Source: a virus. Taken from it: a stretch of DNA of 36,464 nt. Location of the stretch: IMG/VR virus record IMGVR_UViG_3300045902_000346, positions 1-36,464 of that record. One strand, written 5' to 3'. Below are positions 2,227-34,108 of the stretch, piece by piece. Below the pieces are notes generated by a model that made no database searches, was not told where the DNA came from, and was given only the letters and a program-made list of their open reading frames with translations. The translations under genes were made by a program, and so were the position numbers. Each line of letters begins with the position of its first letter. Position 1 is the stretch's first letter.

Positions 2227-3131
2227 TATTTAACTCCTAATACTTTAAAGATTTCCTGCACTCTATCCGTATAACAATGATGATTATTAATTAGCCACTC
2301 TATTCCAGTTAATTCCAACTTCGGCTGCTTAACAATAATCTCTTCTAACTCTTCTACATTTTTAAAGAATAAGCAGGATTCTCCAAAAATGTCATGATAG
2401 TCAGGTAAAGATTCGTGTACTACTGGCGTCTTATTATATTTTAATATTTTAAATATTCTTTCGCTTGGAGAAGTAGAATTATCATTAGAAACACTAATAT
2501 TTATTTTAGAATTTTCTACTACCTCTTGAAACGAACGTTTATCTAAAGAACCTAAATAATTAGCTGTGGGCCAAGGACCGTAACCAAATAATTTTACTTG
2601 ATATCTTTCTAACAAAGGGTAGATAAACTCAGAGATATTTTTTTCTTTTCTCGCCTCATAGCATCCAATGAAAGAGATTTCTGACCGAAAGCTACTTTGA
2701 AGCGGTGAAGGAGCCGGTAGAACTAAATCAGCCGCAGGTAAGCAGGGAAGGATGCCATACACGCCGGAATGATGCCCCCAATGTAATCTCTCCTTGGATA
2801 TCAAGGTAGGAAAGGTAGTATTGAGAAGCACGCCAGCATTGCGGAGTTGGTAAACAAAGTTTTTTTCTTCTTCGGAAGCTTCTTCAAAGTTGCTAATGAA
2901 AAGAATGATTTTTATTTTCTTATCCAGAATTGCCCGCACAGCATCTCTCGTTAAATCTCGACTATGAGCCCAGACTAAATCTGGGTCAAACTCATCCATC
3001 GCATCAAAGGAAGAATCTTTTCCACATACCCAACTACGAGTCTGATGCCCTAGGAATTGAAAGGCGTGGAACCAACCGGAAGAGAGGCTCTGTGTGTCAG
3101 GCACCTTCCCTGCTGAAACTAAAATCTTCAT
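2226..3131 (-). CDS. Glycosyltransferase, GT-B fold (glycosyl transferase family 1-like)
   Basis: A protein of 301 residues. The N-terminal half begins MKILVSAGKVPDTQSL and contains DPDLVWAHSRD. The C-terminal half has a typical donor-binding region: ISFIGCYEARKEKN, then LFGYGPWP, then SERIFKILKYNKTPVVHE and the acidic VEELEEIIVK. It probably transfers a sugar from an NDP donor to phage or host glycan or to modified DNA; the substrate cannot be told. Two copies of the GC-rich repeat lie inside the gene in opposite orientation (2741-2760 and 3097-3117), and the interval between them looks more GC-rich than its surroundings. The start at 3131 overlaps the end of the nucleotidyltransferase gene. 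Confidence 0.75.
   Translation of the reverse strand: MKILVSAGKVPDTQSLSSGWFHAFQFLGHQTRSWVCGKDSSFDAMDEFDPDLVWAHSRDLTRDAVRAILDKKIKIILFISNFEEASEEEKNFVYQLRNAGVLLNTTFPTLISKERLHWGHHSGVYGILPCLPAADLVLPAPSPLQSSFRSEISFIGCYEARKEKNISEFIYPLLERYQVKLFGYGPWPTANYLGSLDKRSFQEVVENSKINISVSNDNSTSPSERIFKILKYNKTPVVHESLPDYHDIFGESCLFFKNVEELEEIIVKQPKLELTGIEWLINNHHCYTDRVQEIFKVLGVK
2741..2760 (+). repeat. GC-rich dispersed repeat, copy A
   Basis: Plus strand AGCAGGGAAGGATGCCATAC. It faces copy B inside the glycosyltransferase gene; the coding strand reads GILPCLP. It is preceded by GGTA, as in copy D. Confidence 0.65.
3097..3117 (-). repeat. GC-rich dispersed repeat, copy B
   Basis: Minus strand TTCAGCAGGGAAGGTGCCTG, continuing A. 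It encodes SAGKVP at residues 6-11 of the glycosyltransferase. Confidence 0.65.
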
Positions 3132-3850
3132 AACTTACCTTTCACTAAATTTCGCGCCTTGGTAATATCCTTGGAATAATCCACTTCCACAATCTTTGAG
3201 TTGGGACTGTAGTATTCTTGAAAATCAATTCCTTCTTCCAGCATCAAATTGAAAATTTCAAATGAAAAGAATTTGTTTCGATTTTCGTCATCCATGAAGT
3301 TTAGATAGGACTCCATCTCATTCTCTTCTAGATAACATATTTGTGACCATTTAATGTCAGACCCATAACAGAATGTGGATATTTTATCTTCGTTCTTTAA
3401 GATACCAATTTCATCTTTATAGAATTGATGGTTTTTATCTAATAAGACTCCACTTTTATCCCATTCAATTTCAGATAAAGTTTCCTTATTGAAAACTAAA
3501 TCTCCATACACAATTAAGTATTTATTTTTATCACAGTATTCTGTGGCAATACTAATACTTTTAGCTACATTATTATCTTCATAATGTTTATTATGTATAG
3601 TTTTGACTTCTTTACTTCCTAACACTCTTTTGAATTTCCACTCATTCACAAAGTTGTTAATTTTATTATGCTCAAATCCTGTAACAATTACAATATCGCT
3701 TTTAGGATATAATTCTTGAAGAATATTTAATTGCCTTCCTAAAATATTAGTATTATCCAGTAATATTAAACATTTAGGTCCGTAGCTTTTCATTCTCTTG
3801 CCAATTCCCGCTACCGGAATTATAATACTAAATTCTTTAAAATTATCCAT
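3128..3850 (-). CDS. Sugar/alcohol-phosphate nucleotidyltransferase (MobA/RmlA-like fold)
   Basis: A protein of 240 residues. The N-terminal glycine-rich nucleotide-binding loop reads IIPVAGIGKRMKSYGPKCL, the classical signature of NTP-transferases that activate sugar phosphates or phosphocholine. It is followed by LGRQLNILQELYPKSDIVIVTG and, near residue 115, the metal-binding-type YLIVYGDLVFN. It would make an NDP-activated precursor for the neighbouring glycosyltransferases. It overlaps both neighbours by 4-8 bases. The exact substrate is unknown; a CTP:phosphocholine-type enzyme is as likely as a hexose type. Confidence 0.72.
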   Translation of the reverse strand: MDNFKEFSIIIPVAGIGKRMKSYGPKCLILLDNTNILGRQLNILQELYPKSDIVIVTGFEHNKINNFVNEWKFKRVLGSKEVKTIHNKHYEDNNVAKSISIATEYCDKNKYLIVYGDLVFNKETLSEIEWDKSGVLLDKNHQFYKDEIGILKNEDKISTFCYGSDIKWSQICYLEENEMESYLNFMDDENRNKFFSFEIFNLMLEEGIDFQEYYSPNSKIVEVDYSKDITKARNLVKGKL

Positions 3851-4430
3851 TTGTTCTCTGTCTTGCTTTACTTAAGATATAATCTCTATTGCTATTAAGG
3901 GTTTTATTAGTAATATTAATATCCTTTTTACAGGAAACGTATAAACTTTCTGGAATATGAAAGATGGGAAACTTTTCGGAGATTCTTAGCCACATATCCC
4001 AATTTTCCAAAACTGAAAGTGAAACATCAAACTCCCCACAAGTTTCAAAAACTTCTCTTTTATAGAGAGCCGTGGTAGGAATTTGATGCCCAGAAGTTAT
4101 CTTTTGTCTATCGAAGGATGGTAGATATTGTCTGTAATATTCATTTTCAAAATCTGTATAGACTGCCCCCACGGGATATTTTTGAATGGCATCAAAACAT
4201 TTTTTGATATAGTCTAGTTTTAAACGTTGAGTAGTCTCTACAAACATTAAATACGGAGTTTGACATAATGACAACCCTTTATTTAATAATTCGCTTTTAG
4301 TATAATCTCCACCTACCATTAAACCTTTACCAAATTCACATTTTTGCGCTTTGATGGTACTTAGACATTGCGCTGTTTGTTCTTTATTATTGATAAAATC
4401 AATAATAATGACAGTTAGGATTTTATCCAT
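3843..4430 (-). CDS. Family 2 (GT-A) glycosyltransferase, short
   Basis: A protein of 195 residues with GT2 features: N-terminal strand LTVIIIDFINNKEQTAQCL, NKGLSLCQTPYLMFVE, AVYTDFENEYYRQYLPSF (the DxE-like metal site region), and the acceptor-side motif FDVSLSVLENWDMWLRI, which matches the ED..W.R signature of GT2 enzymes. It is shorter than most GT2 proteins because the N-terminal donor-binding part is compact. It is encoded between another GT-like protein and the nucleotidyltransferase, overlapping both. Confidence 0.72.
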   Translation of the reverse strand: MDKILTVIIIDFINNKEQTAQCLSTIKAQKCEFGKGLMVGGDYTKSELLNKGLSLCQTPYLMFVETTQRLKLDYIKKCFDAIQKYPVGAVYTDFENEYYRQYLPSFDRQKITSGHQIPTTALYKREVFETCGEFDVSLSVLENWDMWLRISEKFPIFHIPESLYVSCKKDINITNKTLNSNRDYILSKARQRTNG

Positions 4431-6655: not shown

Positions 6656-6664
6656 AAATGGTTC

Positions 6665-6699
6665 CTACTATTAAATCGGTATTTCCTAACTAATAGTAG
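6665..6699 (-). terminator. Intergenic hairpin between phoH and a glycosyltransferase gene
   Basis: A perfect 9-bp inverted repeat, CTACTATTA and TAATAGTAG, separated by 17 bases, fills the gap after the PhoH stop. No U-rich tail follows on the minus strand, so it may not be a classical rho-independent terminator. Its 3' arm touches the AGGA ribosome site of the next gene, so an RNA-processing or translation-control hairpin is equally possible. Confidence 0.45.
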
Positions 6700-6708
6700 T
6701 CCAAAAAG

Positions 6709-8472
6709 TTATGAATTGTCCATCCATCCGATTATTTTTGCTGTTAAACCATTTCGGACGATGTCTTTTTGGTCTAATTCGACGATTGCAATGTTATCAT
6801 CTCGGTCGTCTAATCTATCAATCATCACTTCATAAGGAACTCTTAGTGTTCTACCATCGTCAAATTTTTGCCAATATGGTAAGTCGCTTTGAGTACAGTC
6901 ACCCACGCAAATAAATTTGGAATTTTTACCCACGCGAGTAATTAACATTTTTAATTGTGGATAAGAACAGTTTTGAGCTTCATCCACCACAATATAAGTA
7001 TCATCAAAAGTTCGACCTCTCATGAATTCGCAAGTATCTATCACTAACCTTTCTTCATCTATGAGTGTCTGTAGATATTCTGGAGAGCAAAACTTAGAAA
7101 ACAAATCGGTAAAGGCTAACATATGTGGGGCTAACTTCTTGTCTTTTTCTCCAGGTAAGAATCCGATAGCACGACCACATTCTTGTAAAGGTCTAATTAA
7201 AAGTAATTTCTTGTATTTATCAGCTTTTAAGTATTCAATACCTTTACCTAAAGATAGGTGGGTATTGTGAGTCACAATAAAATTATTAGTTAAGTATAAA
7301 TGTTTTTCATCTTCAATCATAATACATTGAGATTTTTTTTCACCAACACTTTCTACATTTTCTACATATCTTACAGGTTTATATTTTGTTCTTTCTTTTT
7401 GTAAATCAGCCTTTCTTTTTAATGAAAAACAATTAATATTTGGTAGACATATACTTAATATCCAACATAATTTACCCTCTAGTATTTCATCTTTATATTT
7501 ATATTTAGGGATTTTACTAGACACTGAAACTGTTCCGCCTAATGAATTTATTAGATGAATAAAAGTTTCCTTTAATTTATTAGACGTTGTACATAAAATT
7601 GGAGTTCCAGTAGTTTTATTAACAGTTCCATCTCCGTCCATTATTCCTCTTAACAATTCAATTCTTTGTTCTATATTACCAAATAAATATTCGTCAGGAA
7701 TATATTTTTCGTAACTATATAATCCATGTAAATTAAGTCTTTTTAGTTCGTCATTTATTACATTTTTGTAATCATCATTATCATCACTCTTTTTTATAAC
7801 ATAATCATATTTTGAATTATGTTTAACTTTGGAGATAATATATTCTTTATTTAATACAGATTTTGCTTTATTTAATACTTCTTCATCAGAAGTTGTAAAT
7901 CTAGGATTTTGTTTTAAACATCCTTCTGATATTAATACTCCTAATAAATATGGATGTATAACATATTCTTTTTCTTTAAATTCTACTGGATTGCAAACTC
8001 CAATTTTTAAAACTTTTCTATTATTAGAATTCAAATAATTATTTTTAATAAAATTTGTATCAACTATTTTAGTCCAACCATTTTGAATATGAGTTACTTC
8101 CCATAAGTGTTCTCCGCAGCATTCGACTGAAGAACCATCATTAAAAGTTATTTTAAACAGTTCTTTAATAGGTTGTGGAAATACGCCGGTTACTTTTGAA
8201 GTACCATTTGGAGTACAAATTACATCTCCGACTTTAATATCTTTATTTAAGATAAAACCGTTTGGAGTATATATTTTTGAATCCATTGATAATGCTTTAC
8301 CCGAACCTGCGGGACCAGTACAGATTACGAATTCACAATCTTCAATAGCTTCCAATAAATCAATATGTCCGTCAGTCATAGGTTTTACTTTATACTTCTC
8401 AGAAAGAGAATCTAAAGTTTTTTTATCGAAAGTAGAACGATTAGGATTCGGTTTGCGTTCTTTCTTACTCAT
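6709..8472 (-). CDS. phoH: PhoH-like ATPase interrupted by an intein
   Basis: An open frame of 587 residues. Residues 1-59 and 404-587 together make a PhoH-type P-loop ATPase of about 243 residues, a protein common in large phages. The Walker A motif is GPAGSGK|T, cut by the intein exactly between K59 and T404. The C-terminal part holds RPLQECGRAIGFLPGEKDKK and the Walker B-like DDTYIVVDEAQN, then GDCTQSDLP, all typical of PhoH. The ATPase can work only after the intein is removed. The N-terminus (MSKKERKPNPNRS) is basic. A 9-bp hairpin lies after the stop. Its biochemical role is poorly known in the family; RNA/DNA-linked ATPase activity is assumed. Confidence 0.9.
   Translation of the reverse strand: MSKKERKPNPNRSTFDKKTLDSLSEKYKVKPMTDGHIDLLEAIEDCEFVICTGPAGSGKALSMDSKIYTPNGFILNKDIKVGDVICTPNGTSKVTGVFPQPIKELFKITFNDGSSVECCGEHLWEVTHIQNGWTKIVDTNFIKNNYLNSNNRKVLKIGVCNPVEFKEKEYVIHPYLLGVLISEGCLKQNPRFTTSDEEVLNKAKSVLNKEYIISKVKHNSKYDYVIKKSDDNDDYKNVINDELKRLNLHGLYSYEKYIPDEYLFGNIEQRIELLRGIMDGDGTVNKTTGTPILCTTSNKLKETFIHLINSLGGTVSVSSKIPKYKYKDEILEGKLCWILSICLPNINCFSLKRKADLQKERTKYKPVRYVENVESVGEKKSQCIMIEDEKHLYLTNNFIVTHNTHLSLGKGIEYLKADKYKKLLLIRPLQECGRAIGFLPGEKDKKLAPHMLAFTDLFSKFCSPEYLQTLIDEERLVIDTCEFMRGRTFDDTYIVVDEAQNCSYPQLKMLITRVGKNSKFICVGDCTQSDLPYWQKFDDGRTLRVPYEVMIDRLDDRDDNIAIVELDQKDIVRNGLTAKIIGWMDNS
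7264..8295 (-). mobile_element. Class 3-type intein with LAGLIDADG endonuclease inside PhoH
   Basis: Intein of 344 residues (PhoH residues 60-403). It starts with Ala (ALSMDSKIYTPNG) rather than Cys or Ser, and ends IVTHN before extein Thr. The three residues that define class 3 inteins are visible: Trp in block B (GEHLWEVT), Cys in block F (SQCIMIED) and Thr in block G (VTHN). The central part has two LAGLIDADG-like motifs, PYLLGVLISEGCL and ELLRGIMDGDGTVN. The first has Ser-Glu-Gly instead of Asp-x-Gly, so the endonuclease may be intact or weakened. The insertion point is the invariant P-loop. Confidence 0.87.
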
Positions 8473-9632: not shown

Positions 9633-9968
9633 TCAAACTACTTGAACCACTACATTAGTACGAAAGTATCGTAGAGCCCGTTCTTGCATTTCAACTAAAT
9701 CTCGTTTAATGCTATGAGGAATATTGTGAGGATTAGTCATACGAGCGCACTCAATAGCCTTATGAATACCAATATGCTTATCAAAGCTTTCTAGCTTAGT
9801 ATTACACTTACTCCAACCAACCTTAACAACACCATCATTATCTCGGAAAGAGATAATAACACCGGTGCGATTACCCTTACTATCCCGCTTATACTTTAGT
9901 AGAAACTTATTGTTAAGAACTTCTTGGTTACTCTTCTTGCAGAATTCCACATGGCTTGCGCGACTCAT
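9633..9968 (-). CDS. Hypothetical basic protein (111 aa)
   Basis: Not recognised. The protein begins MSRASHVEFCKKSNQEVL and is basic overall, with a central beta-rich part (GVIISFRDNDGVVKVGWSKC) and a helical end (KRDLVEMQERALRYFR). The start is well supported by GGAGAACGTT just before the ATG, and it overlaps the stop of the upstream glycosyltransferase gene by 4 bases. A terminator-like hairpin follows. It sits between sugar genes but looks like a small phage housekeeping protein rather than an enzyme of the cluster. Confidence 0.55.
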   Translation of the reverse strand: MSRASHVEFCKKSNQEVLNNKFLLKYKRDSKGNRTGVIISFRDNDGVVKVGWSKCNTKLESFDKHIGIHKAIECARMTNPHNIPHSIKRDLVEMQERALRYFRTNVVVQVV

Positions 9969-11593
9969 AACGTTCTCCTTTTTTCAAAATTGTTTTTCAT
10001 CTCACATAAATTCATTAAGTGCCGTGCTAACTTTTCTCTTGTAAACTCGCCAAATTTGGTATAAGCTTGAGAGCTATGGTCCGGGTCTACTAGTAAATTA
10101 GGTAAACCGTCAATACACATTCCCAAACCTAAATCTCTAGCTAATCTAATTGCTAAGTAACTATTTACTAAATCTGGTCTATTAGCAATTTTATCAAAAG
10201 CCCAATTAACGAATTCCGTGTTCGACATTTCTGAGCTTGGCACTCGCAGGTCCGATGAGCCAAGTTTAGCAGGTTCTTTCCACTTGTCAAGTGGAACTAC
10301 GGAATCAAAATGCTTTTCCCAAATAGCTGCTGTCTTTTCCCAAGTGTAGTATAGTTCTACAGCCTTTCTAGCTTCCACACCTTCTCTTATTCTTTCTTCT
10401 TTTGGCTTATGGAAAAATTTAATAAGTTTGTCAATTAAGTCATCATTATCCGGTAAAGCCCGGTAAGATTCAGTTCCAGAATCTCGAAACATTCTGTGAA
10501 TTCTAATAGGATACCCACTTAGTTTTTTAACTATATCTGACATAGCAGAGTAATCCACTGACATAATTGGAGTTCCTGAAGAGGCTGCTTCAATTTGTGG
10601 CATTCCGAAACCTTCACAAGTAGCATATTGAACATAAATATCAAATAGAGCCATAATTTCATTAAGAATACTAGGCGGAACTCCATTACGAATATTAGGA
10701 GTGTATACATCTGCTTTTCCACAGAATCGACAGCTAGCCCGACCGTCTTGGAAATGGGATGGGTATATCTCTTTGCAGGAGAGGCACTGGTATGTAAAAT
10801 ATGTTCTATGCCCCACGCCATATTCTTTCAAAAGCCTTGGGATGTCCCACCCTACATCCGGGTAGGCGGTATGTATATATAAATAGGAACGCTTGGCTAT
10901 TTCCGGGGGAGCCACATTTAAAAATTTCGCAAAAGCTTCCATCAAATCAGGATATAACTTTCTTACCTGATTCCTCATCACTGTTCCAATAATGAGAGCG
11001 TCTTCTGGTAAACCAATTTGTTTTCTGACTTTAATCTTATCCAAGCACTTATAATCTTTTAAATTAGCCCCAGGTGGAGCAGAAGAAATAGTTTTAATCC
11101 TACCTCGACCTTGTTGATTTAGAACGTCTAAACCCCAATCAGAATAAGTAAACACCGCGTCAGCATTGGTATAAGTAGGAATCCAATCATCATTTTGAGG
11201 CGCAGAATCTACCGTTGGCATAATAGCCCAATGGTAATATTGTCTCGCTGGAGAACGTTCTTCAAATTCTAACATCCACGTATCACGAATATCAAAGACA
11301 ATGTCTGGCTTAAAAGATGCGCAAACATTATCAAAAATAAACTCTCCGAATTGATTACTAGGTTTAGAATTATAAATAGCTTTACCTCTCTCATCATTCT
11401 CCCGAGGTAAAACTGGAAAATACTTCCAAGGAATATTATTGGAAGCCGGGTCGTCTGGTTTGCCGTATGCTGCTAATTCAGCTAATTCATATTTTCCCGT
11501 GTTGTAAAGTCGTGTAAGAACTTCATATCCATAAGTAGAATATCCAGTAGACAGAAGTGAGCTTTCATTACACATCAAAATTCTTTTTTTCAT
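9965..11593 (-). CDS. Glycosyltransferase family 4-like with zinc-ribbon insertion
   Basis: A protein of 542 residues from the ATG at 11593, which has AAGGA six bases upstream (the ATG at 11599 touches that site). The GT4 core shows RILMCNESSLLSTGYSTYG, a middle region LIIGTVMRNQVRKLYPDLME, and the donor motif FDIYVQYATCEGFGMPQIEA with GTPIMSVDY. Between about residues 272 and 305 there is a zinc ribbon, QCLSCKEIYPSHFQDGRA then SCRFCGKA, a CxxC...CxxC pair not part of ordinary GT4 enzymes. It is followed by the donor motif, so it lies inside the C-terminal Rossmann half. The C-terminal 90 residues are a helical extension. A copy of the GC-rich repeat lies in the ribbon. Substrate unknown. Confidence 0.82.
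   Translation of the reverse strand: MKKRILMCNESSLLSTGYSTYGYEVLTRLYNTGKYELAELAAYGKPDDPASNNIPWKYFPVLPRENDERGKAIYNSKPSNQFGEFIFDNVCASFKPDIVFDIRDTWMLEFEERSPARQYYHWAIMPTVDSAPQNDDWIPTYTNADAVFTYSDWGLDVLNQQGRGRIKTISSAPPGANLKDYKCLDKIKVRKQIGLPEDALIIGTVMRNQVRKLYPDLMEAFAKFLNVAPPEIAKRSYLYIHTAYPDVGWDIPRLLKEYGVGHRTYFTYQCLSCKEIYPSHFQDGRASCRFCGKADVYTPNIRNGVPPSILNEIMALFDIYVQYATCEGFGMPQIEAASSGTPIMSVDYSAMSDIVKKLSGYPIRIHRMFRDSGTESYRALPDNDDLIDKLIKFFHKPKEERIREGVEARKAVELYYTWEKTAAIWEKHFDSVVPLDKWKEPAKLGSSDLRVPSSEMSNTEFVNWAFDKIANRPDLVNSYLAIRLARDLGLGMCIDGLPNLLVDPDHSSQAYTKFGEFTREKLARHLMNLCEMKNNFEKRRTL
10775..10790 (+). repeat. GC-rich dispersed repeat, copy L (degenerate)
   Basis: Plus strand GCAGGAGAGGCACTGG, close to copy G without its GTGCC spacing. 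It lies in the zinc-ribbon coding part (CLSC) of the large glycosyltransferase. Confidence 0.4.
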
Positions 11594-11612
11594 TTTCATT
11601 CCTTAAAACTAA

Positions 11613-11663: not shown

Positions 11664-12080
11664 TTAGAAAGGGGTGGCGCTGTCGCCGTCATCAGCAGGA
11701 GGGGAATCATTATCGTCTGGCCCATCCTCTTCCTGCTTACCGCCACGCTTTCCGAGCGGTGGGAACCAGAATTCTTCTAGGCGAAACTTAATCTTACTGC
11801 GGTTGGTTTTGGTGGTTTTATCTTCCCATACTTCTTGTTTGGCCGCACAACGCACGGTAATGTAACTACCCTTCTCAAAGAATTTAGCGATAGTTTCAGC
11901 TTGTTTGTCCCAAGCTTCAATATCGAAGAAGTTGGTTTCTGTAACTTCTTTTCCATCCTTTTTCTTAAACTTTCTAGAACAGGCGATTGTAAAGCTAGCA
12001 ACTTTAGTGGAACCTACTTCTTTTACTTCCACGTCCCGAACTAGATTTCCAGTAAACAGACAAAAATTCATACTACTCAT
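11664..12080 (-). CDS. ssb: Single-stranded DNA-binding protein
   Basis: A protein of 138 residues with the OB-fold SSB pattern: NFCLFTGNLVRDVEVKEVGS, VASFTIACSRKFKKKDGKEV, NFFDIEAWDKQAETIAKFF, KGSYITVRCAAKQEVWEDK. The C-terminus is acidic and ends DDGDSATPF, the usual SSB tip that recruits partner proteins. It would coat ssDNA at the fork with the DnaB/DnaG/DnaE proteins encoded here. It has its own consensus promoter just upstream and a terminator downstream. Two facing copies of the GC-rich repeat are in the acidic tail coding region (11692-11709 and 11721-11740). Confidence 0.95.
   Translation of the reverse strand: MSSMNFCLFTGNLVRDVEVKEVGSTKVASFTIACSRKFKKKDGKEVTETNFFDIEAWDKQAETIAKFFEKGSYITVRCAAKQEVWEDKTTKTNRSKIKFRLEEFWFPPLGKRGGKQEEDGPDDNDSPPADDGDSATPF
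11692..11709 (+). repeat. GC-rich dispersed repeat, copy C
   Basis: Plus strand TCAGCAGGAGGGGAATCA, in the acidic tail of the SSB gene; it faces copy D twelve bases on. Confidence 0.55.
11721..11740 (-). repeat. GC-rich dispersed repeat, copy D
   Basis: Minus strand GTAAGCAGGAAGAGGATGGG. It encodes GKQEEDG in SSB and can pair with copy C as a short mRNA hairpin. Confidence 0.55.
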
Positions 12081-12147: not shown

Positions 12148-12513
12148 TTATAACTTATTAATTCCATTCTTTTCAAAATCTTTACGTCTTTCAGGAGTAT
12201 CTTTCATAATTCTTACATTACCAAAAATTTTTTCTGTAGGGGCAGGAACTAGAACATCCTTCGTTCTCACAATTCTTACCAACCAACCTTCCTTAGCGTT
12301 TGCTTCTATTACTCCATGCATAGGCTGGTCATTAAAATATGGAATTACATGCTGCCTTCGACATATACCTTCGTTATAATAACTTCCATCTGGATTTAAG
12401 ATAGGTTTGTCTACATGAGCGTAATCAAAATCACTTTTAATTTTTTGACTACCTATAGAAATAGACGGAACTAAAAATCCTAAAATTGAAGATAAAAAAG
12501 TTCTTCTTATCAT
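12148..12513 (-). CDS. Small protein with Tat-like signal sequence
   Basis: A protein of 121 residues. From the second ATG at 12513, which has GAGG at a usable distance, it begins MIRRTFLSSILGFLVPS, a twin-arginine-like N-terminus (RRTFL followed by a hydrophobic run) that suggests export through the Tat system or a short membrane anchor. The rest is soluble (FDYAHVDKPILNPDGSYYNE, HGVIEANAKEGWLVRIV) and unrecognised. It overlaps the end of the DnaE C-terminal gene by a few bases. It is odd to find an apparent exported protein between two replication genes. Confidence 0.5.
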   Translation of the reverse strand: MIRRTFLSSILGFLVPSISIGSQKIKSDFDYAHVDKPILNPDGSYYNEGICRRQHVIPYFNDQPMHGVIEANAKEGWLVRIVRTKDVLVPAPTEKIFGNVRIMKDTPERRKDFEKNGINKL

Positions 12514-13112
12514 ATCTGCCATACCTCTTTTACAATTAGGGAACCCTTCTTATCTCTCTCACCATGAATCAAAACTGTGTTTCCTTCTACCAAGAATTCC
12601 GCGAATTGTTGATAGATGTCTGCCCAGACACACACATCAGATAGAGCGCAAGTGTCATCTGATATGGTTAGGAAAGCCATCGTTTTGCCAGCCGAATTTC
12701 CTTTTTTAACTTTAACTTCTCGGATTGATTGAATCGTTACTCCAAACATTAAATAACCCTTACGGCCAGCCAAATATTCTTTACAAGAACAGTTCACTCT
12801 GCTAGTATCACAAGAATCAATTTTATTACACGAAATAGAAATTCCTAAGTATTTTTCTTCCGTCCAAGCAATAAGATTGGGTTCATCGTTCATACTTTTA
12901 ATAGGATGTTCTAATACTTTAATTTTATCCTTTAAAATTTCTACTCGATTAGCAATAGAGCAGGCTCCACCTTCTTTTTTACTTTTAGCTGCCGCCTTTA
13001 AAACTTCTAAAAAATTGGAGTATTTATTAAAATTCTTTAACACCCATTCTTGTTCCTTATCTGTTAAAGATGAGTAAACTCGATATTCTTCTAACATTTT
13101 AGTTCTTGACAT
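12510..13112 (-). CDS. dnaE: DNA polymerase III alpha, C-terminal OB-fold part (separate ORF)
   Basis: A protein of 200 residues. The N-terminal half is helical and has Cys residues (NKIDSCDTSRVNCSCKEYL). The C-terminal half matches the OB-fold at the end of DnaE: KGNSAGKTMAFLTISDD, CALSDVCVWADIYQQFAEFL, EGNTVLIHGERDKKGSLIV. It begins one base after the stop of the middle DnaE fragment (TAAAATG), so the two are almost one protein with a stop between. It should bind the ssDNA template and stabilise the polymerase. Confidence 0.72.
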   Translation of the reverse strand: MSRTKMLEEYRVYSSLTDKEQEWVLKNFNKYSNFLEVLKAAAKSKKEGGACSIANRVEILKDKIKVLEHPIKSMNDEPNLIAWTEEKYLGISISCNKIDSCDTSRVNCSCKEYLAGRKGYLMFGVTIQSIREVKVKKGNSAGKTMAFLTISDDTCALSDVCVWADIYQQFAEFLVEGNTVLIHGERDKKGSLIVKEVWQI

Positions 13113-13113
13113 T

Positions 13114-16431: not shown

Positions 16432-16870
16432 TGTTTGCCATCATCCTTGTTTGATGTCTTCCACCGTCAAAGGTTTCTTGGTATAAAATGTTTAGAACGT
16501 TCCATAAAATTGTTTTATCATCTATTAAGTGGTGAGATGATAAAGCAAAAAAATTGCCCGCGTTATGTCTGATAGCATATTCTGCATTGTATTGGTCAGT
16601 AATTAGACAAGAACGAATTCCGTCGATTTTATTCGCGCAAATATTAATTCCCTGTCCACTTCGACAAATTCCAATACCGAAATACTCTTTATTTTTCAAT
16701 ACATAGTCTGCTGCCATTTTAACGTAGACATTATAATCACAGTCTTTAGTATTAAAACAGCCAAAATCAATATACTCAATTTTTCTATTAGATAATATCT
16801 TCATAATTTGTTGCTTTAATTCGTAACCAGAATGGTCACAACATAAAGCAAATTTTCTATTTAAAAATAT
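16424..16870 (-). CDS. rpiB: Ribose-5-phosphate isomerase B-like (RpiB/LacAB), unusual start
   Basis: The frame reads KFALCCDHSGYELKQQIMKI, the N-terminus of RpiB with its active-site Asp-His, then YIDFGCFNTKDCDYNVYVKM, the catalytic-Cys loop FGIGICRSGQGINICANKI, YAIRHNAGNFFAL and GGRHQTRM. It thus looks like a full RpiB of about 145 residues, interconverting sugar phosphates such as ribose-5-P and ribulose-5-P or a related heptose/pentose pair. The only ATG, at 16804, is inside the protein and would remove the CDHSGYELK segment. No ATG, GTG or TTG lies further upstream before the open frame merges with the end of the nucleotidyltransferase gene; coordinates to 16870 assume ATA. The frame is -1 relative to that gene's stop (see findings). 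Confidence 0.75.
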   Translation of the reverse strand: MFLNRKFALCCDHSGYELKQQIMKILSNRKIEYIDFGCFNTKDCDYNVYVKMAADYVLKNKEYFGIGICRSGQGINICANKIDGIRSCLITDQYNAEYAIRHNAGNFFALSSHHLIDDKTILWNVLNILYQETFDGGRHQTRMMANND

Positions 16871-17598
16871 CTATAAGAAACACTCTCGAAAAAATTAAAT
16901 TCTTCAGGAGTGCCCATAATATGAATTTTCTCAATAGAACGTTGAGTTATTACTGATGGAAAAATTCGTTCACAATTATCTTTTAATAGTTCATTATACA
17001 ATGGACAAATATGAGTTTCCTTAGAAGATTTATTAATATAATCTTCGGCGTAACTTTTAAATAGCCTAGTAGTCTTAAAACAGTAAACTCCTACCGAAGC
17101 TAGGTTGCTAGGAAGCACTTCTTTTTCTTTAGTAAGAATAACTTTACCCTGTTCATTTAATTGAACATAGCTATAGTTAGGACTATTAGATTTAAAAGTT
17201 AAAATTAACCCATCATTCTTAAAATCTTCATCACAAGGCTTATAACATGGAGAAAAAGTGGTATCTGGACAATAAACAACCAATGGTAAATCTTCAGATA
17301 AATCTTTTAATCCAATTAAAACGGTTTCAGTTGCCCCACTTGTGGCTTTTTCCGTAATCACAATTTTAATATTATGACCAAATTTATTCTTCAACCAACT
17401 GTCAATAGAATAATTTTTTACGTGTTCCTGTCTAACTACAAAAGTCACTTGACATTCACTCGTATCAATAGAATCCATTGACCATTCTAAAATACTTTTA
17501 TTTCCACATATCAACATCGGCTTAGGAAGAAAAAAGCCCCCATCTACCATACGTTGACCCTTACCCGATAGAGGCACCACTAGATTATACTTTACCAT
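16861..17598 (-). CDS. Sugar nucleotidyltransferase (RmlA/HddC-like)
   Basis: A protein of 245 residues. The nucleotide-binding loop is NLVVPLSGKGQRMVDGGFFL then PKPMLICGNKSILEW, with SGATETVLIGLKDL and VVYCPDTTFSPCY (the Asp of the metal site) further on, and VGVYCFKTTRLF and HIMGTPEEFNFF near the end, typical of RmlA-type sugar-1-phosphate nucleotidyltransferases. Preceded by the GC-rich repeat copy that also provides an AGGGAAGGG ribosome site. With the kinase, phosphatase and isomerase next to it, it would build an NDP-activated sugar. Confidence 0.82.
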   Translation of the reverse strand: MVKYNLVVPLSGKGQRMVDGGFFLPKPMLICGNKSILEWSMDSIDTSECQVTFVVRQEHVKNYSIDSWLKNKFGHNIKIVITEKATSGATETVLIGLKDLSEDLPLVVYCPDTTFSPCYKPCDEDFKNDGLILTFKSNSPNYSYVQLNEQGKVILTKEKEVLPSNLASVGVYCFKTTRLFKSYAEDYINKSSKETHICPLYNELLKDNCERIFPSVITQRSIEKIHIMGTPEEFNFFESVSYRYF

Positions 17599-17600
17599 AT

Positions 17601-17620
17601 GCCCTTCCCTGCTTACTTAC
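17601..17620 (-). repeat. GC-rich dispersed repeat, copy E (between genes)
   Basis: Minus strand GTAAGTAAGCAGGGAAGGGC, immediately before the ATG of the nucleotidyltransferase gene and overlapping the end of the kinase gene. It doubles as the Shine-Dalgarno region. Confidence 0.6.
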
Positions 17621-21453: not shown

Positions 21454-22496
21454 AATTTCTCCAATAAGTTTTTCCAATCCGCCATATTTTTGTCTATTGA
21501 GAAGTATTTTAAAGCTGCTTCTCTACCACCTTTAGATATTTGACGAGCTAAATTCTTATCTTCTAGTAAAAGTTGTAAATAACCTCTAAGTTCTTTTACA
21601 TCATCAGACCAGAAACCAGACACTCCATTTTCAATATAAGTATGTGCCTCAAAAGTAGGCTTATCTGGAGAAACGCTTCCAATCTTAGGGCCGATACTCA
21701 CTGTAGGTATTCCAGTAGAAAGAGCTTCCATGAAAGAATAAGTGAACGGTCCCGGCTTAGTACAAGTAGAAAAATAAACTCCAGCTTCTACTCGTAACTT
21801 TTGAATTTCAGCAGGAGAGAGGTCACCGGCTGAAAACGAAATGTCTTCATTCTCAAAGCCCCCTACGATTCTATTAAATCCTGCTGTTACGTCTAAGTAA
21901 GTATTCCAGGCGGAATAATCTCCACGCTTCTTCATCCATTTATTAATAGTTAAAACGTAATCTTTTTCACCGGTCCATCCTTGATAGTAATTTGTGTCTA
22001 CATAAGGTCTAATCACGGCATCAAAATCGTGAAATCTATTAATATATTTTTCGGTATTGGAATATGCCACTTTCTTTACTTTAGAAACGTAAGGACTAAA
22101 GTGGGTTTGAGGTTGGCCTATATATCTAACTATGACAGGTTTATTCTTAAAAGAGTCCCAATTCAATGTTAGATTTTCTTCAAAGTGAGCCACAATCAAA
22201 ACATCAAACAGTTTAGCAAACTCTTTATGTATTTTCTTATAATAAATACCTAATATATCTTTGATAGTGATTTTATCAAAGCGTTCAACAATTTCATCAT
22301 AGTTATGATAGAACTTAAATTTTTCTAATAACTCTTCATCAATTTTAATATCTAGTTTTTCACTTTTAGTAGGATGACAAGGTCGTCTGGGGTCAATATA
22401 ATGTCCAAACGAAAAAACTTGATGACCAAGTTTATCTAAAACTTTTAGTTCATCAAATTCTAACGTTTCGTGACAAGATAAGTATAATATTTTCAT
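21450..22496 (-). CDS. Glycosyltransferase, GT-B fold (family 4-like)
   Basis: A protein of 348 residues: MKILYLSCHETLEFDELKVL, DVLIVAHFEEN, KPVIVRYIGQ and the donor-binding region VYFSTCTKPGPFTYSFMEAL with STGIPTVSIGP, then GREAALKYFSIDKNMADWKN. All fit a GT4-like enzyme. A copy of the GC-rich repeat (21806-21829) and a weak facing copy (around 21879-21890) are inside it. Confidence 0.78.
   Translation of the reverse strand: MKILYLSCHETLEFDELKVLDKLGHQVFSFGHYIDPRRPCHPTKSEKLDIKIDEELLEKFKFYHNYDEIVERFDKITIKDILGIYYKKIHKEFAKLFDVLIVAHFEENLTLNWDSFKNKPVIVRYIGQPQTHFSPYVSKVKKVAYSNTEKYINRFHDFDAVIRPYVDTNYYQGWTGEKDYVLTINKWMKKRGDYSAWNTYLDVTAGFNRIVGGFENEDISFSAGDLSPAEIQKLRVEAGVYFSTCTKPGPFTYSFMEALSTGIPTVSIGPKIGSVSPDKPTFEAHTYIENGVSGFWSDDVKELRGYLQLLLEDKNLARQISKGGREAALKYFSIDKNMADWKNLLEKL
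21806..21829 (+). repeat. GC-rich dispersed repeat, copy F
   Basis: Plus strand TTTCAGCAGGAGAGAGGTCA, continuing CCGG; a weak inverted partner, TCCTGCTG, follows at 21879-21886. It codes for LSPAE in the glycosyltransferase read from the other strand. Confidence 0.5.
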
Positions 22497-22963
22497 TTAA
22501 TTACCGTTCCATCTCCATTTAATCTAATCGAGTCACTATCTTCATGGTGAGTAGAAATTTCTATTAAGGTCACATCAGTATGACCATATAATCTATGAAC
22601 CATTCCAGTTGGGATATGTAGGCTATCAGATTCATGTAATTTTACACATTGAGCCGTTAATTCACTCTTATCCCAAGATAGTAAAACGTTTAATTCTCCA
22701 TTGAGAATGTAAAAACATTCGTCTTTCTTTTCATGATAGTGCCAACTGGTATATTTACCCTTTTTAATAAAAAGAATTTTTCCACAATACAAAGGGCTAT
22801 TAATTATCCAGTTTTCATACCCCCAGGACTTGCTTACAAACTTTTGCGTTTCAGAAGTACGGGGAAAGTAGAACTCAAATAAGTCAAAAGGGTGGGCAGG
22901 CTTCCGTCCAAGCCAAGACGGAACACCCTTATCCACTGGCACCCTCTCCTGCTGATTTTGCAT
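22493..22963 (-). CDS. Cupin protein (sugar-isomerase-like)
   Basis: A protein of 156 residues. GYENWIINSPLYCGKILFIK, KGKYTSWHYHEKKDECFYIL and LHIPTGMVHRLYGHTDVTLI give the two cupin motifs with the His-His-Glu metal ligands, as in the C-terminal cupin of type II mannose-6-phosphate isomerases/GMP. It may be a sugar epimerase or isomerase of the cassette. The ATG at 22963 lies inside the 3' end of the exonuclease gene. The TTG at 22969 is also possible. Residues 2-11 contain QQERVPV, encoded by repeat copy G. Confidence 0.72.
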   Translation of the reverse strand: MQNQQERVPVDKGVPSWLGRKPAHPFDLFEFYFPRTSETQKFVSKSWGYENWIINSPLYCGKILFIKKGKYTSWHYHEKKDECFYILNGELNVLLSWDKSELTAQCVKLHESDSLHIPTGMVHRLYGHTDVTLIEISTHHEDSDSIRLNGDGTVIK

Positions 22964-23606
22964 TTCCAAAAACTCCTCTAAATGTGGTTTTGGCAGCGAT
23001 GTTTCTGTGAAACTTCATGAATCTCGCTAGAATCATAGCTGTATCTTTTACGTCTTTGATAGCATTGTGAGCCCCATCTTTGGGAATACCAAAATAGTCT
23101 CTTAAGGTATCAAGTTTATAATTAGCCACATCTTTGTTATTTTCAAACCACGTAAAACACAAACATAATAAATCTATTTTATCTCTACCGTGAAACAGAA
23201 TAGGTTCTTTACTTTTATTATCTAAAGGCCCGTATAGTTTGCACATTCTGTTTACAATATGCATATCATAACCTAAAATATTATGACCTGCTGCAATTGG
23301 AGCCCCCCAAAAGCTTTTCTTTTTATTATACTTATTGCAATAATTAGTAAATGCTTCCCAGGCTTCTTTTTGGTTAATCCCTTTTTTATCTACTACAGAT
23401 TTTTCAATCTTGTTAATAGCTAAAGCCTCGTCTTCAACTTTAGACCAGTCAGTAGGCTTAATATAAGTCTCAAATTCTGAATTTGGTTTTATTTCTAGAC
23501 TGCGAGAATCAATAGCTACGGCGGCTAATTGTAATGGTTCACAAGTATGAGGGTCTTTTCCACCAGTCTCAAAGTCAAAAACAATAATATCGTTATAGTT
23601 TATAAT
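22929..23606 (-). CDS. DnaQ-like 3'-5' exonuclease (DEDDh), non-AUG start
   Basis: The frame starts INYNDIIVFDFETGG, with the exonuclease motif I (DFET), then AAGHNILGYDMHIVNRM (motif II with Asp), and AHNAIKDVKDTAMILARFM (motif III, H...D). About 225 residues. The only ATG, at 23264, would cut off motif I and is therefore not the real start. Upstream of the true N-terminus there is GGAG, then ATT (23606) and ATA (23603), the latter overlapping the previous TAA as ATAA, but no ATG, GTG or TTG. It could be the proofreading partner of the DnaE proteins or a recombination exonuclease. The last residues are encoded by the GC-rich repeat. Confidence 0.85.
   Translation of the reverse strand: MINYNDIIVFDFETGGKDPHTCEPLQLAAVAIDSRSLEIKPNSEFETYIKPTDWSKVEDEALAINKIEKSVVDKKGINQKEAWEAFTNYCNKYNKKKSFWGAPIAAGHNILGYDMHIVNRMCKLYGPLDNKSKEPILFHGRDKIDLLCLCFTWFENNKDVANYKLDTLRDYFGIPKDGAHNAIKDVKDTAMILARFMKFHRNIAAKTTFRGVFGNAKSAGEGASG
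22934..22957 (-). repeat. GC-rich dispersed repeat, copy G (in a gene overlap)
   Basis: Minus strand TCAGCAGGAGAGGGTGCCAG, continuing TGGA. It lies in the overlap of the exonuclease end (SAGEGASG) and the cupin start (QQERVPV), so it is read in two frames. Confidence 0.65.
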
Positions 23607-24273: not shown

Positions 24274-24556
24274 ATACTTCCTCATCGGTTTTACTAAGTT
24301 TATCATTCACTGAATTGTCTATAAATCTAGAAATAGCTTCATCCAGCTTTTCTTCTGCAAATTCTGCAAATTCTATATTATCTTCTGTGAGCTTACTCAC
24401 ATTCCATTTCTTTCTATCCCAAAATAAAGAAGATTGTTCGGACTCGACCCAAAATAAATCTTTTCTTTTTCCTAGGATATCTTTAATTAAATTATTAACA
24501 GAAACTTTTCTTTCTAGAGCGGAGTATTCTAAATCGTCTAATTTAATTCCAACCAT
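24254..24556 (-). CDS. Hypothetical acidic helical protein (100 aa)
   Basis: Not recognised. The protein has no Cys or membrane segment; its second half is rich in acidic helices (FAEFAEEKLDEAISRF). ATG overlaps the stop of the DnaE N-terminal gene (TAATG), so it is coupled to it, and a link to polymerase function is possible but unproved. Its end overlaps the start of the next gene. Confidence 0.5.
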   Translation of the reverse strand: MVGIKLDDLEYSALERKVSVNNLIKDILGKRKDLFWVESEQSSLFWDRKKWNVSKLTEDNIEFAEFAEEKLDEAISRFIDNSVNDKLSKTDEEVYATNLY

Positions 24557-26523
24557 TATTCACCCTCGATAGTTCCGTTTAAAAGCAACTCTTGAACACC
24601 CATAATTTTATCTAGGACAGCTACCCCTAGAATATCAAATTTCACATGCCCCATCGCCTCCAGAGCGCCCATTTCCATGCCCGCAATCATTAATCCAGTA
24701 GACTTGTCATAAACCATTGGGCAAACGTCGGCTAAGACGCTATTGGAAATCACCACGCCTGCGGCGTGCTTACCTTGACTTTTTTTAGTTCCCTCTAATC
24801 TAATAGCTTGTTCAAATAACTTAGAATACTGACCGTCTAAACTACCATCTTCCTTAATAAAGCACCACTGCTTTAGTTCTTTTGGCCGATTCTCTAGAGC
24901 CCATCGAAGAATACTAGCCTCACCAGTTTCTTCCATCATTAACTGTAGTTCATCTGAAATTTCAGCTTCTTGAGGTATGAACTCGTTAATTTTATTAATT
25001 TCTTCAAAGCTACAAGCGTCGTGAGCCCGAAATACGTCTTTGACCGCGCCTCTTCCTTGCATTCGGCTAAAGGTAACCATTTGAGCCACCTTATCCATTC
25101 CGTAGGTATTACGGATATAAGACAGTATCTCCTCACGGAAACTAATAGGGAAGTCACAATCAATATCGGGTAGAGAAACTCGACCGGGAGCATTTCTACC
25201 AGCGTTATAGAATCTCTCGAAGAGTAAATCATTCTTAATTGGGTCTACCACTTTGTCAGTAATACCGATTAAAGCTGAAACTAAACATCCAGCACCAGAA
25301 CCGCGCCCCGGAGAAAGTAAACATCCTTTACTTCTGGCGTAATTACAATAATCTTGAACAATTAAGAAGTAAGAGGCTAGACCAGCTTCTTTGAAAACGT
25401 CTAACTCCTTCTTAATTCTATCTCCGTATTTTGAGTATTCTTCCTTTTTAATAATAGGCTTAATAGTCTTCTTCCAACCTTCTACACATAATTCTCTTAA
25501 ATAATCATCTGGAGATAATCCGTTGGGACATTTGAATTGAGGAATAGAAGGTGTGCCAAGAATATCATATTCTTCACACATCTCATTAATTCTCATAGTG
25601 TTATTTATCTCTACATCTGTATGTAGACTTTCCATTTCTAAAGTTGATGGAATATGATAATTATTTGATTTAAAGAAACAGTCTAATAAGTAATTATCTG
25701 TATTAGCAATTTTATTCTTAACTTCTTTAAATGTAGTTTCCATTAAAGAACATACTAAAACTCTTTGGTCAATAGCATCTTCTTGAGTGGGATAATAATT
25801 ATTACCAATAGCCACTAATTGATTTTCAATTCCCTTTTCTTTAGCTAAATAACGAATAATCTTATTACTAATTGAGTTAGCTGGAGTATTTTTAGCATCA
25901 ATTAAATTAGAAGCTAAGAAAAAATTCTCTTTTCCAAAAATAGATTGATACTTTTCAATCATATCCAAACCACGTTTTTTCCAATCTGACTCTACATAAG
26001 ATTTTGCAATCTCATAAAGCTTAGTTGAATAAGCTAACTTCAGATTTTCCTTATTAAATAAACAATTGGACAAATCTGAGTTTAAATGACCGCTAATAGC
26101 AATCAGATTACCTTTTTGAGTAAACTTACTAAGTTCGTCTAAAGAAATACGAGGTTTATAGTAAAAGAAATCGGGGTGATTAGATTGAGAAATAATTTTA
26201 ATTAAATCTCGCCACCCCTCAAGATTTTTAGCTAAAACATAAACTTGTGATAATTTCCGATTAAATTCTTCTTTAATTGTTGGCTTACTATCACATAAAT
26301 ATAAATCGCAACCTAAAATTGGTTTAATCGCATAGCCTGATTCCTTTTTCATCTTCTTAAAAGATTTCATTACGTCAACTACACCACTTACACTACCTTG
26401 GTCGGTAATAGCGCAAGCGTTATATCCTAAATTCTTACATCTTTCAGCAATCTGATTAGCTTTGTTAGAGCTATTCAGTAGACTGTAGTGAGTATGACAA
26501 TTAAGTGGAATCCATTGTTTCAT
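24556..26523 (-). CDS. dnaE: DNA polymerase III alpha, N-terminal half (PHP + palm)
   Basis: A protein of 655 residues. The PHP domain begins PLNCHTHYSLLNSSNKANQI and ACAITDQGSVSGVVDVMKSF, with metal-binding His and Asp. The palm has LLSPGRGSGAGCLVSALIGI, SLPDIDCDFPISFREEIL (two catalytic Asp), VAQMVTFSRMQGRGAVKDV, KHAAGVVISN, and MGHVKFDILGVAVLD with the third Asp. It stops ~15 residues later (NGTIEGE), at the point where DnaE would continue to VFQLE. That continuation is encoded at 14199-13114. No intein fragment is visible at the end, so the two should associate non-covalently. PHP ligands appear present. Confidence 0.93.
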   Translation of the reverse strand: MKQWIPLNCHTHYSLLNSSNKANQIAERCKNLGYNACAITDQGSVSGVVDVMKSFKKMKKESGYAIKPILGCDLYLCDSKPTIKEEFNRKLSQVYVLAKNLEGWRDLIKIISQSNHPDFFYYKPRISLDELSKFTQKGNLIAISGHLNSDLSNCLFNKENLKLAYSTKLYEIAKSYVESDWKKRGLDMIEKYQSIFGKENFFLASNLIDAKNTPANSISNKIIRYLAKEKGIENQLVAIGNNYYPTQEDAIDQRVLVCSLMETTFKEVKNKIANTDNYLLDCFFKSNNYHIPSTLEMESLHTDVEINNTMRINEMCEEYDILGTPSIPQFKCPNGLSPDDYLRELCVEGWKKTIKPIIKKEEYSKYGDRIKKELDVFKEAGLASYFLIVQDYCNYARSKGCLLSPGRGSGAGCLVSALIGITDKVVDPIKNDLLFERFYNAGRNAPGRVSLPDIDCDFPISFREEILSYIRNTYGMDKVAQMVTFSRMQGRGAVKDVFRAHDACSFEEINKINEFIPQEAEISDELQLMMEETGEASILRWALENRPKELKQWCFIKEDGSLDGQYSKLFEQAIRLEGTKKSQGKHAAGVVISNSVLADVCPMVYDKSTGLMIAGMEMGALEAMGHVKFDILGVAVLDKIMGVQELLLNGTIEGE

Positions 26524-27102: not shown

Positions 27103-27425
27103 TATTCATACCTAGCGGCTTTCAAAACTCTATTTCTAGCTTCAATAGCTTCTTCTTTACTCTTAAACCTGACTACTACATGGTCTTGCCATTTAGAATC
27201 TTCATTAGGATATACAGTCATAACACTATTACTTTGCCACTTACGCCCTAAAGACGGGTCATATCCCACATAAATTAAAATTCCTTCTTTGCTATTCCCT
27301 CTCCAAGTATCCATATTCATTTGTTCGAGAGTTTTGATGCAAGTATGACCGAAAATAGCACCTAAAGTAAAAGTGACAATTATTATTACATATCCTATAA
27401 AAGCATAAGATATCTTATTAATCAT
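27102..27425 (-). CDS. Hypothetical membrane-anchored protein (107 aa)
   Basis: Residues 5-26 (ISYAFIGYVIIIVTFTLGAI) form one transmembrane segment; the rest is a soluble domain (GILIYVGYDPSLGRKWQSNS, HVVVRFKSKEEAIEARNRVL) with the last part like a small ferredoxin-type fold. No family recognised. It overlaps the Nudix gene end by 4 bases. Confidence 0.5.
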   Translation of the reverse strand: MINKISYAFIGYVIIIVTFTLGAIFGHTCIKTLEQMNMDTWRGNSKEGILIYVGYDPSLGRKWQSNSVMTVYPNEDSKWQDHVVVRFKSKEEAIEARNRVLKAARYE

Positions 27426-28018
27426 AATAATTCCTTAATGACAAATTGCGACCAATTCTCAAACAAACCAGAGTTCTGAACTAACCAATCATAATCGACA
27501 AATTCCCCGCTGTCAAGAGCCGGGTCTACAGGTTGCATGATTGCATTATGCATCATAGTTAGTCGGTGAACTACACCTAAGTGTACTTTCCCTACATCAT
27601 TAGACGGGTCATAAATCAACCCTAAAACTTCATTATGAAAATCTCCACGGAGAGCCACTTCTTCTTGTAGTTCTCGCTTCATCGCCGCATCATATGAGCA
27701 GGAAGGGATGCCGTCACATTCCGAAATATGCCCGCCGACTCCAATTGACCATTTATCATGCAGTCGGGATTCGCCACTTTTTTTAGTGCGTCGATAAACA
27801 AAAAAATTTTTCCTATTATCCCAACCGGCTTTGATTACACAATAAGGGATAAGCTGTTTATATTCGGGGTTAGTTTCAGCCTTAGAACGTTCTAGATAGA
27901 AAAGCGAATTTAAGAATTTGGGTTCACTCAACATAGTGACACCTTCCCTGCTGACTCCGGGTTTTCCACCTAATTCAAGGAAAATATTCTCTGGAACAAC
28001 TAAAACTTTTTCGTCCAT
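27422..28018 (-). CDS. Nudix hydrolase
   Basis: A protein of 198 residues. The Nudix box is recognisable: GGHISECDG...AAMKRELQEEVAL, with the RExxEE core present as RELQEE but a few extra residues between the first Gly and the Arg-Glu. The upstream part WSIGVGGH and the preceding IPYCVIKAGWDNRKNFFVYR are usual. It would hydrolyse a nucleoside diphosphate linked to another group. Two facing copies of the GC-rich repeat lie inside the gene (27696-27718 and 27936-27957), the second near the start. Confidence 0.8.
   Translation of the reverse strand: MDEKVLVVPENIFLELGGKPGVSREGVTMLSEPKFLNSLFYLERSKAETNPEYKQLIPYCVIKAGWDNRKNFFVYRRTKKSGESRLHDKWSIGVGGHISECDGIPSCSYDAAMKRELQEEVALRGDFHNEVLGLIYDPSNDVGKVHLGVVHRLTMMHNAIMQPVDPALDSGEFVDYDWLVQNSGLFENWSQFVIKELL
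27696..27718 (+). repeat. GC-rich dispersed repeat, copy H
   Basis: Plus strand GAGCAGGAAGGGATGCCGTC, continuing ACA. It faces copy I in the Nudix gene; the coding strand reads GIPSC. Confidence 0.65.
27936..27957 (-). repeat. GC-rich dispersed repeat, copy I
   Basis: Minus strand GGAGTCAGCAGGGAAGGTGT, continuing CA. It encodes VSREGV near the Nudix N-terminus, a different frame from copies B, G and K. Confidence 0.65.
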
Positions 28019-28054
28019 TTGTGATTACTCCGTGTAATATTTGTAGGAGGCTTT

Positions 28055-28384
28055 ATGAATTTTGAAAATATCTATCAGTGTTACTTTTTAGGTTTACTTT
28101 GGGGAGACGGTTATATGTCTAAACACCCAAGAGATAAAACTGTTTACGCAGGTATTAGGATAGAAACTATTACCTCTGATTCTGTTGTTTATGAAACTAT
28201 AGTTGAAAAATCAGGTTTTAATTTTGTTACTAGTTGTAGGAATAGAAAAAATAGAAAACCCCAAACTAGAATTTCAATTAATAGTATACCACTAGCTCAG
28301 GAATTTTTCAAGTATGATTACCATTTAAAATCACATATTTCTCCTGATAAATTAATATCTTGTCCATTCCCCCACTACAATTAA
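28055..28384 (+). CDS. LAGLIDADG homing endonuclease fragment (only plus-strand gene)
   Basis: A protein of 109 residues on the plus strand with GTAGGAGG four bases before the ATG. YFLGLLWGDGYMSK is a LAGLIDADG motif, followed by IRIETITSDSVVYETIVEKS and a basic stretch. One motif only, and the C-terminal part appears cut: after SPDKLISC the frame runs into the antisense of the decayed gene at 28352-28809 and ends at TAA. It is a truncated homing endonuclease, probably of the single-motif type and likely inactive. Confidence 0.72.
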   Translation: MNFENIYQCYFLGLLWGDGYMSKHPRDKTVYAGIRIETITSDSVVYETIVEKSGFNFVTSCRNRKNRKPQTRISINSIPLAQEFFKYDYHLKSHISPDKLISCPFPHYN

Positions 28385-30295: not shown

Positions 30296-30300
30296 AAATA

Positions 30301-33390: not shown

Positions 33391-33391
33391 T

Positions 33392-34108
33392 CTATCCTCG
33401 TTTACTGAGTATACAATTATCACACTGATAACTTGTTAGGTCATCTCTACCTAATCTTTGAGGCGCTAAATGAGCGTCAATTCTATATTTTCTTTGACAT
33501 GAAAAACATCTAACTACAACCTTTTTAGATGGTTGTCTTTTAGGAATCATTTTTTTAGCAGCAATAGATTCTCTAGTTCTTACCTTTTTATCAAAAGTAA
33601 GAGTGTCAGTCTTAGCGAAAGCGGGATTATCTTTAAAATTATTTTTTCTTGGCCCCAAAGGAAAAGCTACTCTAACACATTGTTTATTGCGAGTTTCTCC
33701 CCCAGAACCAGCGTCTTCAATTACCTCTTCACCAAAGAACGGAATTTTACTAGGATTCTTCTTAGGAAGAACTTTTTCTTCTTCTTCATCAAAAACTTCT
33801 TCTTCTCCCACATCTAATAAAGAATTTTCAGCAGGAAGGGGCTCATCATTAGATGAATCCGCCGCCTCCGTCTCAATTTGAATCAGAGAGTCATCATAAT
33901 CCTCTGGTTCGGGTTCGATTTCTTTGTTTTCCACAGGAACCCTTTCCTGCTGACTCTCACTTAACAAGCTCAAAATCTGTTGCAGGTGAGAGTTATCCAG
34001 AGTTTCAACTTGAGTAGAAGTTAAGAGTTCGTAAGATTTTTTAATCTTGGAAAAATCTTTTTCTTCAATTCCTGTCTTTAGGAGTTGTAGGGCATTGGTA
34101 TCTAACAT
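33392..34108 (-). CDS. Acidic protein with C-terminal zinc ribbon (238 aa)
   Basis: Not recognised as a family. Residues 1-50 are helical, residues 55-130 are very acidic (EPEPEDYDDSL, EEEVFDEEEEKVLPKK), and residues 198-235 form a zinc ribbon: RCFSCQRKYRID and YQCDNC, a CxxC...CxxC. The acidic stretch carries two facing copies of the GC-rich repeat; the heptapeptide QQERVPV at residues 53-59 is also in the unrelated cupin. It is encoded just ahead of the helicase gene, so a role in replication or transcription is possible. Confidence 0.55.
   Translation of the reverse strand: MLDTNALQLLKTGIEEKDFSKIKKSYELLTSTQVETLDNSHLQQILSLLSESQQERVPVENKEIEPEPEDYDDSLIQIETEAADSSNDEPLPAENSLLDVGEEEVFDEEEEKVLPKKNPSKIPFFGEEVIEDAGSGGETRNKQCVRVAFPLGPRKNNFKDNPAFAKTDTLTFDKKVRTRESIAAKKMIPKRQPSKKVVVRCFSCQRKYRIDAHLAPQRLGRDDLTSYQCDNCILSKRG
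33826..33845 (+). repeat. GC-rich dispersed repeat, copy J
   Basis: Plus strand TTTCAGCAGGAAGGGGCTCA; it faces copy K about 90 bases away. In the coding strand it reads EPLPAEN. Confidence 0.65.
33934..33957 (-). repeat. GC-rich dispersed repeat, copy K
   Basis: Minus strand AGAGTCAGCAGGAAAGGGTT, continuing CCTG. It encodes SQQERVP in the acidic protein. Confidence 0.65.

Follow-up and report, generated by a model that had tools for sequence, protein, structure and literature searches.

The 36,464-base stretch of phage DNA analysed here, referred to below as the window, contains, in 12 copies, an asymmetric word of about 22 bp, made up of TNAGCAGGRRRGG and a short tail rich in G and T, and this is a double-stranded-DNA recognition word maintained across the genes of this phage. 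The motif is real, belongs to the DNA level and is common to at least three phage genomes, between which its dialect shifts: the form is GCAGG in the window and in its relative G001, and GCAAG in a further relative, G532. Copies are gained and lost by point substitution. We infer that the word is held by selection or molecular drive and that its reader lies outside the conserved phage genes, and we give a probability of about 50% to the reading that it is a host-set, dialect-bearing DNA address motif read by an uptake receptor or a Chi-type enzyme. Only a few groups of bacteria are known to carry genome self-recognition words such as uptake sequences and Chi; a strong, dialect-bearing word in phages from a lineage not yet cultured would indicate a new self-recognition system.

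The motif and its copies

An earlier note on this DNA had listed eleven copies and a weak twelfth; on re-scanning the window, its positions were right within a few bases and its strands were right. A glycosyltransferase gene (2226-3131) contains a facing pair, with TAAGCAGGGAAGGATGCC (2739..2761, plus strand), antisense to the gene, as left arm and TCAGCAGGGAAGGTGCC (3094..3116, minus strand), sense and covering codons 6-11, as right arm. Three other pairs have the same layout: TCAGCAGGAGGGG (11692..11714, plus) in the acidic tail of ssb (11664-12080) with TAAGCAGGAAGAGG (11717..11739, minus) in the same gene, TGAGCAGGAAGGGATGCC (27695..27717, plus) with TCAGCAGGGAAGGTGTC (27932..27954, minus) in a Nudix-like gene (27422-28018), and TCAGCAGGAAGGGGC (33828..33850, plus) with TCAGCAGGAAAGGGTTCC (33931..33953, minus) in an acidic zinc-ribbon gene (33392-34108), the plus copy being the left arm and the minus copy the right arm each time. 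Elsewhere, TAAGCAGGGAAGGGC (17593..17615, minus) lies between genes 17613-18314 and 16861-17598, overlapping a stop codon, ribosome-binding region and start; TCAGCAGGAGAGAGG (21808..21830, plus) is antisense in gene 21450-22496; and TCAGCAGGAGAGGGTGCC (22933..22955, minus) is sense, in codons 5-11 of gene 22493-22969. The weak, motif-like copy TTTGCAGGAGAGG (10772..10794, plus) falls in a glycosyltransferase gene (9965-11599); this copy, the one listed at 10775, has TTT in place of TNA, lies over a conserved CxxC codon pair, and may be a chance match.

That the GC-rich core is commoner than chance, as the earlier note had held, is borne out by two kinds of control. GCAGGRARGG occurs 7 times in the window as against 0.06 in dinucleotide shuffles and a mean of 1.15 in 1000 within-gene shuffles of synonymous codons, which preserve both proteins and codon usage and never reached the observed count (maximum 3); the looser core GCAGGRRRGG occurs 10 times. 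An unbiased ranking of 9-mers in G001 places GCAGGGAAG at the top, well ahead of all other words (15 copies, 0.21 expected), and the same word heads the ranking of the window, so the motif is not a post-hoc pattern. A matrix search of relatives, which had been proposed as a check, found 37 further sites in G001, and a matrix trained on G001 alone re-found 11 window sites above 14 bits (0.38 expected from relatives); reciprocally, the window-trained matrix found 19 sites in G001, with 0.55 expected. With the iterated matrix, the window and G001 together yield 49 sites in 120 kb (12 and 37, respectively), compared with 15 sites in other relatives totalling 2.29 Mb. The resulting density is about 3-4 copies per 10 kb, or about 400 per Mb, and the motif holds about 18 bits over 14 columns, with conservation extending from position -3 (T in 49/49) to about +20. 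EcoP15I-like CAGCAG, KOPS and SRS were counted as candidates and dropped, as they do not account for the conserved TNAGCAGG part.

Position in genes and origin of the copies

G001 is about 95% coding and nearly all of its copies lie within open reading frames; copies are intragenic in proportion to coding density. With respect to the gene that contains them, 24 of the 49 copies are sense and 25 antisense. The former encode peptides such as NKQGS, SAGKVP, QQERVP and SREGV, the latter FPAN, SPAK and similar, and from this variety it follows that the encoded protein is not what is conserved. The earlier observation that copies lie inside genes, in several frames and on both strands, thus extends from the window to G001. 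Homologs could be aligned across 22 copies, and at 20 of these most homologous proteins run through without a gap, as they do at random positions, which indicates that the copies arose by point substitution and not by insertion. The copy in the DnaE gene of G001 (37832), for example, reads KAHFPAQFYCSF, as against KAHFPVNFYCNY in a relative.

These observations bear on two other explanations. In favour of a by-product of codon or amino-acid usage, one frame reads KQG or KQEG, and relatives conserve some of the peptides, KAHFP among them; synonymous shuffles, however, reach a mean of 7 and a maximum of 13 in G001, where 37 copies are observed, and fall short of the window in the same way, the copies are read in several frames and from both strands, and relatives possess similar proteins without the motif. 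We regard this account as the least credible of those considered. Scarcely more credible is a small mobile element that inserts within reading frames, the first option of the earlier note, which would fit the dispersal of copies through unrelated genes and several frames. Rickettsia palindromic elements and mitochondrial GC clusters are likewise short, GC-rich and dispersed inside genes, but they are insertions, whereas the motif copies arise in place with length unchanged. The alignment to homologs proposed as a check for clean insertion gave the ungapped result above, orthologous sites differ by single bases, and the TNA triplets flanking paired copies are not duplicated above chance and are no target duplications; the mobile element is largely refuted.

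Relatives and dialects

Relatives of the window were gathered via the DnaB helicase. G001 (IMGVR_UViG_3300001533_003623, 84 kb) is syntenic with the window, sharing the order RecA, zinc ribbon, DnaB, primase, PD-(D/E)XK nuclease, DnaE and glycosyltransferase block, and contains 10 copies of GCAGGRRRGG (reversed control, 0); none of 78 other relative contigs contains the exact 13-mer TNAGCAGGRRRGG. The nearest relative found for G001 is G532 (IMGVR_UViG_3300033145_000551, 34 kb, syntenic, DnaE 73% identical); it has 9 copies of TNAGCAAGRRR, against 0.34 expected and at most 3 in 100 shuffles, and only 3 of TNAGCAGGRRR; the GCAAG form occurs once in G001 and not at all in the window. At three orthologous places (8378/1445, 15365/10838 and 31270/27957 in G001/G532) GCAGG in the one genome corresponds to GCAAG in the other. 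Altogether 12 sites of G001 can be aligned in G532, of which three are kept with G->A, two are unchanged and the remainder are partly or wholly lost, while six of the nine GCAAG sites of G532 are new, three of the new ones being antisense. The change at the three orthologous sites falls on the third base of a glutamine codon, and since CAA is preferred in both genomes (0.74 in G001, 0.69 in G532), codon preference does not explain the dialect shift.

The DnaE tree joins G001 and G532 as sisters, adjoining the motif-free G018 and G022, and places the window in another, otherwise motif-free clade; the RecA tree likewise sets the window apart from G001. As the window and G001 share GCAGG while the sister of G001 uses GCAAG, specificity does not follow phage descent, and with the same dialect in distant phages and a different one in sisters, inheritance of a core phage protein is hard to invoke as its source. 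Among many relatives, the only further viral fragment hinting at the motif is the 4-kb L042, sister of G001 in the RecA tree, with three weaker GCAGG-type copies. A scan of the viral collection returned, among at least 120 matches listed, five from G001 and no other motif-rich virus, and the largest contigs behind the non-G001 matches listed showed no motif surplus.

The over-represented words of other relatives proved ordinary, those of G022 reflecting codon bias. Promoter-like intergenic words are repeated in G066 (L236-L246; [AT]CTTATTCG) and in G018 (L216-L223; TGGTGTATA), and in G043 (L224-L235) and G049 (L247-L254) a palindrome or hairpin repeat, CTGCCATTTTGGCAG, is clustered over about 20 kb, often paired 29 bp apart with a GC-rich spacer. 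In the window, DNA polymerase III alpha is distributed over three separate genes on the minus strand, 24556-26523 and, about 10 kb away, 13114-14199 and 12510-13112, the last two corresponding to one 701-aa gene in G001. An intein that includes a LAGLIDADG endonuclease domain splits the PhoH gene (6709-8472, minus) at the Walker A motif (GSGKA...HNTH). An upstream part (36342-36414) of the RecA-like gene at the window edge (35471-36464, minus) matches the PhoH intein DNA at 74%, which suggests that this gene holds a second, related intein. A single gene of the window is clearly on the plus strand (28055-28384); it looks like a small LAGLIDADG homing endonuclease, and G001 encodes an OrfB/TnpB-type IS605 transposase (phrog_506; L199:4681-5886).

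Facing pairs

Neighbouring copies less than 600 bp apart are arranged with the plus copy on the left and the minus copy on the right in 9/9 cases, 4/4 in the window and 5/5 in G001, as the earlier note had described for the window; when orientations were permuted, with a correction for how the distance threshold had been chosen, none of 20,000 trials produced this (p<5e-5). The two close pairs of G532 (1445+/1809- and 10838+/11041-) also face each other. Close pairs are no commoner than density predicts, other orientations being absent, and convergent pairs within genes span up to 583 bp. This rule is predicted by neither the uptake nor the Chi model, and it constrains the reading machine. The earlier suggestion that facing copies border swapped or inverted segments finds no support in the Nudix gene, the sole one in which homologs can be aligned across a pair, where the protein is colinear through both copies.

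Two further explanations draw on this regularity. Facing copies might form long-range stems in mRNA or single-stranded DNA, as the earlier note had also proposed, and every close pair is indeed convergent, and in annealing five of the nine surpass about 93% of randomly combined copies. Against such stems, the other four anneal no better than random, about 31 of the 49 copies are solitary and mostly without even a weak facing partner within 800 bp, and sense-strand bias is absent. In place of the paired, covarying sense-strand arms of a structured RNA we find copies that are mostly solitary and unoriented and whose pairing is mixed; scans of the window for Rfam families and tRNAs were empty. 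Complementarity within pairs exceeds that of unrelated copies only in part, and pairing would be at most secondary; as an account of the motif it is improbable. A phage-encoded repressor or nucleoid-like protein binding dozens of asymmetric sites, as at mycobacteriophage stoperators, with specificity varying like immunity groups, is a more serious candidate, if still an unlikely one. An asymmetric site of 13-22 bp in tens of copies, with a specificity that differs between close relatives, is compatible with such a regulator, and facing pairs could reflect dimers or loops; on the other hand, the copies are intragenic and antisense as often as sense, and no gene was found to accompany the motif, every G001 gene with a homolog in the window having one in motif-free relatives as well. 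The nuclease gene 980-1768, considered as specific to the window and G001, proved to be a core gene of the group. Because both sequences are incomplete, the two phages could share a gene that lies outside them.

A proposed host-read address word

We favour a recognition site, Chi-like or similar, among the options of the earlier note, the motif being enriched, intragenic, unoriented, substitution-derived and divided into dialects. Its reader would be a machine for handling DNA, specific for sequence and sensitive to orientation, which lies outside the conserved phage core and most likely belongs to the host. This could be the receptor of a DNA-uptake system, in which case the word would be the uptake sequence of the host, or else a recombination and repair enzyme of the Chi type; phages long resident in such a host would gather the word if fragments or ends bearing it were more often taken up, spared or recombined. 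More tentatively, and at somewhat less than even odds, we propose that the motif represents a hitherto unknown genome-wide address system with at least two dialects, distinct from known uptake sequences and from known Chi, whose copies have to be convergent wherever less than about 600 bp separates them; an orientation-sensitive machine belonging to an uncultured host would read it, and it would mark the past host of the phage. No host chromosome rich in the motif was present among 400 Chloroflexota genomes sampled (background counts), which were selected on account of relative contigs in a SAR202 MAG, or in two MAGs, and isolate phages provided no host clue, as megablast found no match and tblastn no close relative among them. 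Neither the window nor G001 encodes a tyrosine integrase, and the motif-bearing phages look lytic. A search of bacterial genomes for the motif would offer a means of tying these phages to hosts.

Comparison with known systems

The stoperators of cluster A mycobacteriophages resemble the motif in comprising dozens of asymmetric sites genome-wide with a specificity that varies between relatives, but they occupy short intergenic spaces, are oriented with transcription and lose their function on reversal (PMC9283540), whereas the motif copies are intragenic and unoriented. Chi sites, read by RecBCD or AddAB, are likewise asymmetric, G-rich, dispersed in genes without fixed positions and orientation-sensitive; the motif is longer and more degenerate than known Chi of 5-8 bp, matches none of the known Chi sequences, and follows a convergent-pair rule not expected of Chi.

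The uptake sequences of Pasteurellaceae (USS, Hin and Apl) and Neisseriaceae (DUS) are intragenic, occur in both orientations and form dialects (PMC2346458, PMC3630211). The motif has the same profile, an over-represented asymmetric word on both strands, mostly intragenic and present at hundreds per Mb (here about 400), and shares with them a core with a weaker tail, gain by point substitution, occasional inverted pairs and dialects that differ between related genomes. It differs in its sequence, which is unrelated to the variants tested (of two USS and four DUS dialects, at most one copy occurs in any of the three genomes), in having convergent pairs within genes that are separated by as much as 583 bp, and in belonging to phages that look lytic. 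Uptake sequences are scarce in the large Pasteurellaceae phages that are probably lytic; phages lysogenising Pasteurellaceae contain both host dialects at 100-750 per Mb (PMC6776037). The closest precedent for the present motif is the way in which phages of the Pasteurellaceae accumulate the uptake signal sequences of their hosts.
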